A stretch of DNA of 64,000 nt from Epilithonimonas caeni DSM 17710 (GTDB taxonomy: Bacteria > Bacteroidota > Bacteroidia > Flavobacteriales > Weeksellaceae), in NCBI RefSeq assembly GCF_000426465.1, contig NZ_AUFK01000013.1, forward strand, positions 62,001 to 126,000. Direction: 5' to 3'. Position 1 is the first letter of the stretch, and every line of letters starts with the position of its first letter. The position numbers were made by a program, and so were the translations under genes. A model generated the notes under the pieces. It did no database searches. It had not been told where the DNA came from and was given only the letters and a program-made list of their open reading frames with translations. This document shows positions 56,988 through 62,075 of this stretch, piece after piece.

Positions 56988-58529
56988 ATGAACAACAAGT
57001 TTATTCCTATTATATCTGTTTTTATGACAATTTCCCTGGTGGTTTTCGTCTCTTTGCAGCTATATTGGATTAAAGAATTATATACATCTCTCGAGCAGGA
57101 TTTCTCTAATAAAGTTTATTCCGCATTAGAAACTTCGACTCAGAAAGTAAATCAAATCGAGGTCAACAAATATTGGAATGAAACTTATAATAATGTTGGA
57201 AAAGAGGTTTTAGCCTCTAAAAACCAACCAACTAAGACCTATATCCAGCAAAGTTCCGACTCTGCGAATCGTTCGAATATTCTTTTCCAGACAAGCATCG
57301 TTGAAAAGCAAAACATTCCGGTTTCAGCAAAGGGCGACACGTTATACACGACGAAACTTTACAAAGACGAAGGACAATTAAAGCTGAAAAGAAGCAGTCC
57401 TGAACCTTTGACAACCAACATCAGCCGAGACCTTGATAATAATTCTTATCAGATGAAGGAGTTTGCACGTTTGAGCGCGACCAATCTTCCGATAGAAAAA
57501 CGTGTTGACAGCAAAACGATTGATTCCGTCATTTCAAAAGAATTGAGACTCAAAGGGATTGATACAAAATTTGGATTTGGGGTCATCAATAAAACCAATC
57601 AGTTAACAACGGTTGCAAACAACATCTATCTCGACCAAAAAGATAAAACGAACTACACTTATCCACTTTTTACAGACAGCAAAGACAGAACACTTTATAC
57701 GCTGGCTTTGGTTTTTCCAAGAAAAGATTACTCTCTGGTGAAGCACAATTTGCCTATGTTGTTGGGAACTTTCATTTCATTACTGACGATTTTGGGGATT
57801 TATATCATCTCTATCAATTATATGATGAGACAGAAAAAAATTGCGGAGATCAAGACCGACTTTATCAATAATATGTCTCACGAGTTCAAGACACCCTTGG
57901 CAACGATTTCCGTTGCAACAGATTCTTTAGCAAATGATAAAATCGCTACCGACCCGGATAAGGTCAAATACTATTCAGGATTGATAAAACAGGAAAATCT
58001 GAGGATGAAAAAACAGGTAGAGACCGTTTTGAATATGTCCAAACTGGAACGAAACGAAATGCCTCTTCACCTGAAAGAAACTAACGTTCGCGAATTAATA
58101 AAAAGTATTGCAGAATCTTTCCGATTAATTGTTAATGAAAGAAACGGAATTTTAACAACAGAATTTAATGCTACGAAATATAATTTCTTAATTGATGAAT
58201 TTCATATTTCGAATGCATTAATCAATCTGCTAGATAATGCCAACAAATATTCTCCTGAAACACCGGAAATAAAGGTTAGCACGAGAAATGAAGGAAACTG
58301 GTACGTGATAGAAATTTCCGACAAAGGAATGGGAATGGAATCGACGAATAAAAATAAAATCTTTGAAAAATTCTTCCGCGAAGAAACCGGAAATATCCAT
58401 AATGTAAAAGGACAAGGTCTTGGATTGTCTTACGTGAAAAAAATTATCGAAAATCACAAAGGGCAAATCCACGTAGATTCCCACAAAGGAAAAGGAAGCA
58501 CATTTACAATAAAACTTCCGATAGTTTAA
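56988..58529 (+). CDS. Sensor histidine kinase (RprX-like)
   Basis: A 513-residue inner-membrane kinase. One helix at about 8-27 and a second at about 252-281 bracket a large periplasmic sensor. The HisKA segment FINNMSHEFKTPLATIS carries H298. The catalytic domain has the N box (NALINLLDNANKYS), G1 (DKGMGM) and G2 (GQGLGLSYVKKI). It resembles RprX of Bacteroides. The cognate regulator lies downstream, but an S23/four-helix element is inserted directly after the stop codon. Confidence 0.9.
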   Translation: MNNKFIPIISVFMTISLVVFVSLQLYWIKELYTSLEQDFSNKVYSALETSTQKVNQIEVNKYWNETYNNVGKEVLASKNQPTKTYIQQSSDSANRSNILFQTSIVEKQNIPVSAKGDTLYTTKLYKDEGQLKLKRSSPEPLTTNISRDLDNNSYQMKEFARLSATNLPIEKRVDSKTIDSVISKELRLKGIDTKFGFGVINKTNQLTTVANNIYLDQKDKTNYTYPLFTDSKDRTLYTLALVFPRKDYSLVKHNLPMLLGTFISLLTILGIYIISINYMMRQKKIAEIKTDFINNMSHEFKTPLATISVATDSLANDKIATDPDKVKYYSGLIKQENLRMKKQVETVLNMSKLERNEMPLHLKETNVRELIKSIAESFRLIVNERNGILTTEFNATKYNFLIDEFHISNALINLLDNANKYSPETPEIKVSTRNEGNWYVIEISDKGMGMESTNKNKIFEKFFREETGNIHNVKGQGLGLSYVKKIIENHKGQIHVDSHKGKGSTFTIKLPIV

Positions 58530-58970
58530 TTAATAATGAAAAATTAATAATTAAGATTTTGGAGAATATTGAATTTAGGAGAAATATTATTAGAGATAAA
58601 TCATTCGATTTTTCTGTAAGAATTATTAATCTTTTTAAATTATTAACCTCAGAAAGGAAAGAGTTTGTTTTATCAAAACAATTATTAAGGTCAGCAACAT
58701 CGATTGGTGCAAATATAGAAGAAGGGATTGCTGCTTTTAGCAAAAAAGAGTTTGTTGTGAAACTTCAAATCTCTTACAAAGAAGCTTTTGAAGCATATTA
58801 TTGGATAAAATTATTACATAAAACAGAATTTATAAATGAAGCAGAATTCAAATCATTGGAAAAAGATGTAGAGGAAATCATTAAATTATTGACAACTATT
58901 TTAAAAACCACTAAACAAAATATTAACGACACGAAGAAATATTAATTCTTCATTTTTAATTATTAATTAC
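58526..58970. mobile_element. S23 four-helix-bundle element flanked by inverted repeats
   Basis: An imperfect inverted repeat of about 30 bases has a left arm near 58526-58556 and a right arm near 58941-58970, with about four mismatches. The left arm begins at the stop codon of the kinase gene and the right arm ends 6 bases before the regulator ATG. The S23 ORF occupies the space between. The layout matches intervening sequences in 23S rRNA, but here in a protein operon. Mobility is inferred. Confidence 0.6.
58559..58945 (+). CDS. Four-helix-bundle protein (S23/TIGR02436 family)
   Basis: A 128-residue protein of the four-helix-bundle family also found in 23S rRNA intervening sequences and related to Avd of diversity-generating retroelements. 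The segment KEFVLSKQLLRSATSIGANIEEG (55-77) is the family hallmark, with YKEAFEAYYWIKLLHKTEFI later. The start is TTG at 58559; there is no internal ATG at all, so a non-ATG start is needed. It lies inside an inverted repeat. It is AT-rich and low in GC compared with the kinase and regulator around it. Function unknown. Confidence 0.85.
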   Translation: MENIEFRRNIIRDKSFDFSVRIINLFKLLTSERKEFVLSKQLLRSATSIGANIEEGIAAFSKKEFVVKLQISYKEAFEAYYWIKLLHKTEFINEAEFKSLEKDVEEIIKLLTTILKTTKQNINDTKKY

Positions 58971-58976
58971 AAAGCT

Positions 58977-59666
58977 ATGAGCAACAGAATATTATTAGTA
59001 GAAGACGACCAGAGTTTTGGCGCAGTTCTTAAGGATTATTTGACAATCAACAACTTCGAGGTTACATTGGCAACCGATGGAGAAATGGGACTGAAAGAGT
59101 TTACGGAAAAAGAATTTGACATCTGTATTTTCGATGTGATGATGCCGAAAAAAGATGGATTTTCTTTGGCAGAAGATGTGAAGAAAATTGATAAAAACAC
59201 GCCAATCATTTTCCTGACAGCAAGAAATATGCGTGAGGATATTTTAAAAGGCTATCAATTAGGAGCAGATGATTATATCACAAAGCCATTTGATACCGAG
59301 TTGCTTCTTTATAAAATAAAAGCGATTCTACAAAGAAGTGCCGTTTTGGAAAATGAAGACCAAGAGCAGTTTAAAATCAGTAATATCTTCTTCGATTCTA
59401 TGTTGAGACAACTAAGAGTCGGCGAGAATGAATACAAGCTTTCTCCAAAAGAAAACGAACTTTTGAAATTACTTTGCATCCACAGAAACGACTTTATGCC
59501 GAGAGATCTGGCATTAAGAAAAATCTGGAAAAAAGAGAATTATTTCACCGCAAGAAGTATGGATGTTTACATCGCAAAATTGAGAAAACTTCTGAAAGAT
59601 GATGAAGGTCTGGAAATCATCAACGTTCATGGAGAAGGTTTCAGATTATTAGTGAAAAACCCATAA
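58977..59666 (+). CDS. OmpR-family response regulator (RprY-like)
   Basis: A 229-residue regulator. The receiver domain has the acidic pocket ED (residues 9-11) and the phosphoacceptor D53 in CIFDVMMPKKDG, with K103 in ITKPFDTE. The C-terminal winged helix (about 130-225) has LSPKENELLKLL and ARSMDVYIAKLRKLL. It is the partner of the kinase ending at 58529, and no other kinase lies near. Confidence 0.92.
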   Translation: MSNRILLVEDDQSFGAVLKDYLTINNFEVTLATDGEMGLKEFTEKEFDICIFDVMMPKKDGFSLAEDVKKIDKNTPIIFLTARNMREDILKGYQLGADDYITKPFDTELLLYKIKAILQRSAVLENEDQEQFKISNIFFDSMLRQLRVGENEYKLSPKENELLKLLCIHRNDFMPRDLALRKIWKKENYFTARSMDVYIAKLRKLLKDDEGLEIINVHGEGFRLLVKNP

Positions 59667-61661: not shown

Positions 61662-62075
61662 ATGAAAAAATCGATAACTTTACTTTTAGCATTTCTAACC
61701 TGTACAATCTGTTTTTCTCAAAATAAAACTTTAACTTATAAATTTAAATACGCTTATTATATCTATGAAGATTATAAAAATAAAGAGCGTACCTATGTTC
61801 CTACAGGAAGCGACGTTACTATAACTTACGATACTTTTTTCAAAAAATATTTTGTTTTGTGGACAGATTCAAAAAATATCCGTGCCGGTAATAATTTCTA
61901 CTATATTCCATCAAATGACGAGAATGGAATTACTTCTGCGTCTGATGATAATGGTAATTATTATTATATTGTTGATAAAATAAAGGACTATAGCAAATTA
62001 TTCATTACTATGAAAAAACAGACACATAACTTTATGGTGACAATATTATTAACAGATGAATTAATTACGAATTAA
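61662..62075 (+). CDS. Small secreted protein of unknown function
   Basis: A 137-residue exported protein. The ATG at 61662 gives signal MKKSITLLLAFLTCTICFSQ, while the longer frame only runs back into the amidohydrolase gene. The mature part is rich in Tyr, Asn and Lys (YKFKYAYYIYEDYKNKERTY), like many secreted Bacteroidetes proteins without named family. The stop overlaps the convergent thioredoxin gene by about 11 bases. Confidence 0.62.
   Translation: MKKSITLLLAFLTCTICFSQNKTLTYKFKYAYYIYEDYKNKERTYVPTGSDVTITYDTFFKKYFVLWTDSKNIRAGNNFYYIPSNDENGITSASDDNGNYYYIVDKIKDYSKLFITMKKQTHNFMVTILLTDELITN

Follow-up and report, generated by a model that had tools for sequence, protein, structure and literature searches.

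Between the genes for a sensor histidine kinase and an OmpR-type response regulator, the genome of Epilithonimonas caeni DSM 17710 carries a 447-nucleotide (nt) insert in which an open reading frame (ORF) of the S23 family stands between inverted arms. We conclude that this insert is very probably an S23 element, a mobile element of 0.4-0.5 kb that resembles the intervening sequences (IVSs) of rRNA and lies in sense orientation between the genes of an mRNA operon. The DNA analyzed, referred to below as the window, comprises 64,000 nt (positions 62,001 to 126,000 of contig NZ_AUFK01000013.1, assembly GCF_000426465.1, forward strand); coordinates are those of the window, and its genome is labelled G000. 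S23/IVS elements have been rRNA oddities for decades, with a protein of obscure function. The S23 element is the best explanation for observations of several kinds, namely the anatomy of the insert, the occurrence of further copies across the genus and numerous phyla, the mostly sense placement between stop and start codons, the existence of short-spacer alleles, the presence of the same element in different operons, sites that hold several unrelated elements, and the decay and loss of inserts.

The insert extends from the kinase stop codon to the regulator start. The kinase gene (56988-58529, + strand), taken from the ORF list and matching the HisKA and HATPase_c profiles, ends in a TAA (58527-58529) with which the left arm opens. 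An inverted-repeat search placed the two 33-nt arms, which have no strand, at 58527-58559 and 58937-58969; 29 of 33 positions pair, every one as A-T, and four are mismatched. In heptamers, the left arm is TAATTAA TAATGAA AAATTAA TAATTAA followed by GATTT, and an array search detected, within the right arm, the likewise strandless heptamer array TTAATTC TTCATTT TTAATTA TTAATTA (58942-58969), the sole one above thresholds in the 64-kb window (none in each of five block-shuffled windows). Between the arms lies the ORF of the S23 or 23S rRNA intervening-sequence protein family (58559-58945, + strand, 128 amino acids, ORF list), which scored 98.3 bits against PF05635 (cut-off 33.8) and 106.8 bits against TIGR02436 (cut-off 24) and whose stop codon is overlapped by the right arm. 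The regulator gene (58977-59666, + strand; ORF list and profile searches) has RprY as its best NCBIfam match, below that model's cut-off. A first-pass annotation of the window had described an S23 ORF without any ATG inside an inverted repeat of about 30 bases with about four mismatches, the left arm opening with the kinase stop codon, and each of these points was borne out; its count of six bases between the right arm and the regulator ATG is corrected to seven (CAAAGCT, following 58969). The S23 ORF begins at a TTG that no in-frame ATG follows, and its start is uncertain because the frame is open back to 58403. In the S23 genes at the same site in two genomes of other genera (G048 and G033), an in-frame ATG precedes the conserved part, so the window copy may have lost the usual start.

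The pairing of the arms far exceeds the controls. Their score of 23 compares with a maximum of 16 among 2000 shuffles of the AT-rich flanks; of 20,000 random placements in the window, only four scored 23 or more, each of them on the element, and the 19,703 that lay elsewhere did not exceed 16.5. Likewise, none of 220 mismatched pairings of the left or right flank with those of the other 110 loci described below equaled this score. Hence the insert is hardly conceivable as an ordinary third gene of a two-component operon accompanied by chance AT-rich repeats: the AT-rich flanks and the age of the insertion at this site would suit such a gene, but it is already contradicted by the arm scores, by the lack of an intact S23 ORF of this kind at the site in 20 of 23 genomes of the genus, and by the recurrence of the arrangement at 39 sites.

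PF05635 matches above the cut-off occurred in all 23 genomes of the genus, with eight matches (seven above the cut-off) in the genome of the window and no match in 14 well-known control genomes. From 118 rows in the genus, six below the cut-off and G012:C324:1077 were left out, leaving 111 loci. Neighboring genes were called by a simple longest-ORF rule, annotated genes being used for four plasmid copies only, and the names of gene pairs other than the kinase and regulator are our reading of the protein ends. Both neighbors lie on the S23 strand at 105 of the 111 loci, which were grouped by flanking genes into 39 sites. Several of the flanking pairs belong to core operons, among them murE-mraY, groES-groEL, carA-carB and the trp pairs trpE-trpG and trpG-trpD. 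S23 lies in sense between co-directional genes at 34 of the 39 sites, well in excess (p about 1e-11) of a null that halves the co-directional share of adjacent gene pairs, 37 of 54 in the window; among sites with co-directional flanks, 34 are sense and one is antisense. Sense bias alone is no proof of insertion at the RNA level, because faster decay might hide antisense copies from the search.

Arms accompany these S23 genes as a rule. Searching 220 nt on either side of the S23 domain, we obtained a median score of 16.5 for true flank pairs versus 9.0 for mismatched pairs, and scores of at least 14 at 27 of 39 sites (one locus each) versus 14 of 780 random placements. At the 26 strong-arm sites the arms match themselves at lags of 7, 14 and 21 bases (0.555, 0.517 and 0.493, versus about 0.35 after shuffling, 0.348 at lag 7). 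The left arm contains 18.6% G and 5.3% C, the right arm the reverse, and 23 of 26 left arms have more G than C. Among pairs of loci at different sites, arms match in 31% at an S23 identity of at least 0.6, in 4.4% at 0.5-0.6, in less than 1% at 0.20-0.50 and in 4.6% below 0.20 (65 pairs); over all such pairs, arm and protein similarity are nearly uncorrelated (Spearman 0.047), arms being shared mainly by close S23 pairs. The arms share a design, with a seven-base period, G on the left and C on the right, and differ in sequence between elements. The first-pass annotation had proposed a search for further S23 ORFs with the same arms: armed S23 ORFs recur in the same genome and genus, but the arm sequence differs. 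The downstream protein at sites 71_70 and 14_14 (G011:C2 near 50238 and G004:C7 near 10046 are examples) apparently begins with translated right arm, as in KPSTSNCQPATK preceding the TrpG start.

The same organization was found far outside the genus. Four S23 proteins, used to scan named genomes, gave at least 583 relatives, of which the best 80 were kept, so the sample is biased to one S23 branch; these 80 come from many bacterial phyla and from two bins labelled archaeal. In the 74 usable loci (six were too close to a contig end), arms scored at least 14 at 52, versus 3 of 740 random placements in the same loci, and at least 16 at 44, versus none of 740. Self-match at lag 7 was 0.61 for 48 arms (0.30 shuffled), and G exceeded C in 45 of 48 left arms. 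Both neighbors are co-directional with S23 at 55 of 74 loci, and loci with co-directional flanks comprise 55 sense and three antisense cases. Where arms score at least 14 and the neighbor is co-directional, the left arm starts a median of 3 nt past the upstream ORF (n = 43), and a median of 5 nt separates the end of the right arm from the next ORF (n = 46). No S23 match was found among 50,697 phage records, and 30 of 72,556 plasmid records contained one, the listed genera being mostly cyanobacteria plus four Riemerella. Four cyanobacterial plasmid copies with annotated genes were examined out of these 30 records; all four are armed (scores 19-25), and three lie in sense between annotated genes. 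In Pseudanabaena galeata plasmid pPg_01 (L362:1296-1944), the S23 ORF lies between cas6 and cas4 within inverted arms scoring 25. S23 genes have been counted as associated with clustered regularly interspaced short palindromic repeats (CRISPR) or noted in cas loci (PMC3936711), and S23 appears as a CRISPR-associated gene also in a figure legend of PMC10910872. The arms of the pPg_01 copy suggest that its S23 is a passenger rather than a CRISPR protein, and the published listings may reflect operon insertion.

To follow the insert in the window through its relatives, the kinase-regulator site was compared across genomes. The regulator was found in all 23 genomes of the genus. The spacer is 447 nt in G000 and 451 nt in G014, where the same S23 has a broken reading frame; in G022, a sister of G000 in the genome tree, it is 492 nt and holds an S23 of only about 30% identity with other arms. 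The remaining 20 genomes have spacers of 58-171 nt with no intact S23 ORF of the kind in the window; in 11 of these short spacers the match to the S23 element exceeds that of every one of 200 shuffles, and in nine it does not. In other genera, 40 of 68 matches were examined: spacers measure 13-33 nt in 13, an intact S23 is present in two (G048 and G033) and a shortened one in G102, and several spacers appear by eye hairpin-like without an ORF. Uninserted kinase-regulator pairs, whose existence the first-pass annotation had made a test of insertion, were thus found both within the genus and outside it. One clade (support 0.96) unites the S23s at this site in G000, G033 and G048, which are 61-64% identical, whereas that of G022 falls in the murE-mraY clade. 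Because of this three-genus clade and the decayed S23 DNA in 11 of 20 short spacers, the insertion at this site must be old. On these comparisons, it evidently predates the split of the three genera and has been lost repeatedly, including in most close relatives, and G022 evidently carries a different element in place of the original. The proposal that an IVS-like element had moved into the operon therefore stands as regards an S23 ORF within terminal inverted repeats in a protein-coding operon, with the qualification that the insertion here is old. Between G000 and G014, third-position changes number 26 of 129 in the insert, versus 145 of 333 in the kinase and 79 of 229 in the regulator, and this greater likeness of the insert than of the flanking genes hints at a later exchange. 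In the genomes of the g20 group, e.g. G121 (L307) and G079 (L310), the kinase-regulator spacer contains an ORF-less hairpin-like stretch just upstream of one that resembles the right arm of the window element, as if one element had landed beside the remnant of another.

The murE-mraY junction was readable in 21 genomes of the genus (two of 23 have no murE upstream). Exactly six bases separate stop from start in 14 of the 21, and S23 elements are present in two, of 417 nt in G000 and 419 nt in the distant G020; the site is empty in G022. Nine bases resembling a right-arm end occur in G014, a heptamer-like right end is kept in G008, G016 and G017, and another ORF is present in G010. Other genera contributed 27 loci, of which 25 were readable; six hold S23-like ORFs, and the remainder are compact (down to 5 nt) or contain other inserts. 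At this junction, G010 (L155), G057 (L338) and G051 (L349) carry a different small ORF with a hydrophobic-looking start, and the G051 spacer ends heptamer-like just before the mraY start. The spacers of G016 (L153) and G017 (L164) show, beside the heptamer-like right end, a second inverted repeat of the GTCATTCCGTAGGAATCT type, perhaps a separate small repeat family. At groES-groEL (22 genomes, one of 23 lacking a groEL match), S23 inserts of 468-532 nt occur in three, and the spacers of the other 19 measure 47-114 nt. ORF-less repeat-like stretches, GTAAAATGTAAAAAGTATT ... ACATTGTACATTAATAC, were seen in the groES-groEL spacers of G000, G005, G006 and others (L281, L273, L280), occupying the place where three other species have S23 inserts. 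The carA-carB spacers were dropped as a clean example of an empty site, for they hold many other inserts, and the 4-nt spacers apparently belong to another carAB copy.

Movement between operons is clearest where one element occupies two of them. The S23s at carA-carB and at site 98_98 are 82-88% identical and their arms match; those at trpE-trpG in G014 and at trpG-trpD in its sister G011 are 98% identical, the G011 copy having an in-frame stop. Conversely, in different species the same site can be occupied by S23s that are unrelated both in protein and in arms. These cases bear on the improbable alternative that the inserts are very old, do not move by themselves and are merely carried between strains by recombination through homologous flanks. 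Such a spacer would fit the kinase-site clade spanning three genera, the G000 and G014 inserts being more alike than their flanks, and the single clade formed by the murE-mraY S23s of several genera. It would not account for the same arms and ORF in different operons, for unrelated S23s and arms at one site, or for the murE-mraY S23 of G063, which belongs to a different branch and groups with sufA-sufB S23s (0.985).

Movement might also proceed at the DNA level, through a non-autonomous element akin to a miniature inverted-repeat transposable element (MITE) or a repetitive extragenic palindromic (REP) sequence. In that case an enzyme acting in trans would recognize the arms as DNA hairpins, S23 would be a passenger or an accessory DNA-binding protein, and RNA would have no part. 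We consider this possible but rather unlikely, for the mechanism as well as for the role it gives to S23 and RNA. Inverted arms of common design, the ORF-less hairpin-like spacers seen by eye at the kinase and groE sites, and the movement between operons would all suit it, whereas arm sequences vary widely among elements, unlike fixed MITE ends, no target duplication was seen at murE-mraY, the sense bias is strong (which selection for transcribing the ORF could also produce), and S23 is under purifying selection. The uniform terminal sequence expected of MITEs or of elements derived from insertion sequences (ISs) is lacking, as the arms of different sites seldom match unless their S23s are close relatives.

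For the S23 element as we understand it, the position between stop and start codon would explain why the insert is tolerated. It would be co-transcribed with the operon, which would supply expression of the S23 ORF, and its arms would pair in the transcript, bringing the upstream stop and the downstream start together. By analogy with rRNA IVSs, the resulting stem is probably a target of RNase III, and a cut there might separate the kinase and regulator mRNAs, as the first-pass annotation had suggested. The ring of S23 subunits probably has its role at the arms or in the copying of the element. The same geometry could serve translational coupling, the stem holding the stop near the start so that terminating ribosomes reach the next gene; the placement of good arms a median of 3 and 5 nt from the neighboring ORFs is what such a device would look like. 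It seems distinctly improbable, since many relatives do without the S23 element, with spacers of 6 nt or 13-33 nt, no covariation of the arms was seen, and the stem in the window is weak. That the arms are kept by selection for coupling is, on the same evidence, just as improbable.

Several results weigh against the interpretation as a mobile, IVS-like element. In 137 ortholog pairs, arms scored no better with their own partner than with a swapped one (17.06 versus 17.08; own better in 34, equal in 71, worse in 32), and no compensatory change was detected. The predicted RNA fold of 58500-59000 includes the long arm stem but is not unusually stable (z 0.18; 53 of 100 shuffles as stable or more). 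The window stem, all A-U in ungapped pairing with a duplex energy of -19.1 kcal/mol with flanks, would be a weak RNase III target. Across 74 loci the duplexes predicted with RNAduplex separate true from swapped flanks modestly (medians -54.3 and -40.9 kcal/mol; below -20 kcal/mol in 73 and 69 of 74, respectively). Arms score below 14 at 22 of the 74 cross-phylum loci, for 19 of the 74 a sense position with co-directional genes on both sides is not established, and the armed S23 (score 19) of a Calothrix sp. PCC 7716 plasmid (L359:1489-1869) is antisense to both annotated neighbors. An Rfam search of 20 S23 loci chosen for unusual neighbors or spacing placed none in rRNA, and the comparison with rRNA IVSs is therefore drawn from published work only. 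Comparison by eye with the 14 genomes having 6-nt spacers revealed no target-site duplication at murE-mraY, where insertion and decay are perhaps old. The murE-mraY S23s of several genera form one clade, and third-position changes between G000 and G020 are similar in S23 (32 of 119) and the flanking genes (110 of 359 and 155 of 400), so an old insert lost many times is possible there, and gains and losses may not be fully separable.

By fold as well as by profile, the protein itself belongs to the S23 family. The AlphaFold model of the window S23 (mean predicted local distance difference test score 92.5) has four helices and superimposes on 2rld_B with Z 20.7 and a root-mean-square deviation of 0.8 over 112 residues. 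Both 2rld (BT_0352; E 1.1e-34) and 2gsc (Xcc0516; Z 17.0) belong to the same family, and these structures are titled as hypothetical or of unknown function. For eight orthologous S23s at the thiolase site (28 pairs), nonsynonymous and synonymous divergence were 0.018 and 0.350 (dN and dS), and the protein there is therefore under purifying selection. The relation to Avd of diversity-generating retroelements (DGRs), raised in the first-pass annotation, goes no further than a possible likeness of fold: as a four-helix bundle the model is similar to one chain of the DGR complex 8ub8 (Z 15.0) and to Avd 4dwl_C (Z 14.2), but at 11% identity, and unrelated helical bundles already reach Z 13.7 with the same model. 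The resemblance of PF05635 to Avd has been remarked upon before (PMC10053308).

Among known systems, the closest in build is the 23S rRNA IVS, whose best-described example, that of Coxiella burnetii, is 428 nt long, contains an S23p ORF, a 28-bp terminal repeat and heptamer repeats, and is excised by RNase III (PMC4990558). It is similar in size to the window insert (428 versus 447 nt, with terminal inverted repeats of 28 bp and 33 nt) and shares with it the sense S23 ORF, heptamer direct repeats beside the ORF, sporadic distribution and reductive decay of the ORF, but its host is rRNA instead of an mRNA operon, and its excision by RNase III has been demonstrated (PMC4990558), whereas that of the window element is a prediction. 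S23 proteins are also carried by rRNA insertions of the candidate phyla radiation (CPR) (PMC11270868). The window element has the S23 ORF between complementary ends and the heptamer direct repeats beside it that mark rRNA IVSs, yet is no rRNA IVS because it is located between the kinase and regulator genes. Outside rRNA, most TAACTGA heptamer arrays in one genome of the marine Beggiatoaceae lie just upstream of start codons (PMC4679880), and the heptanucleotide sites of Geobacter metallireducens are mostly paired (PMC2700814). These intergenic arrays look like S23 arms, but in the relevant parts of both papers they are taken for regulator-binding sites, with no link made to S23 (PMC4679880, PMC2700814). 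Identity of the S23 arms with TAACTGA repeats was considered and rejected, as rotations of this heptamer occurred beside 10 of 74 S23 ORFs versus 41 of 595 control windows, with no clear enrichment.

The S23 protein family, rRNA IVSs with arms and the Coxiella heptamers were already known. What is new is the anatomy of an IVS in mRNA operons, IVS-like in build and yet no rRNA IVS; a description of S23 as an arm-flanked insert of protein-coding operons was not found in the open-access literature searched. Taken together, the data point to S23 operon elements as a widespread and largely unrecognized kind of small mobile element. A broader and frankly speculative view, which we hold to be doubtful as a whole, is that a class of 0.4-0.5 kb sense elements in mRNA operons extends across the prokaryotes, with rRNA IVSs as its visible minority, that the heptameric arms of these elements bind the pentameric S23 ring with about one heptamer per subunit (Xanthomonas S23p is a ring of five subunits; PMC4990558), that a reverse transcriptase acting in trans makes the RNA copy by which they spread, and that S23 is an ancestor or cousin of Avd. 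If this were true, the CRISPR-listed S23 genes would be passengers of cas operons. If many S23 elements live in mRNA operons, one possible explanation would be at hand for the pre-start heptamers of Beggiatoaceae, the paired heptamers of Geobacter and the CRISPR-associated S23 (PMC3936711). They would also provide abundant material for testing the role of the protein, the spread of so small an element with no evident transposase, and the reason for heptameric arms.

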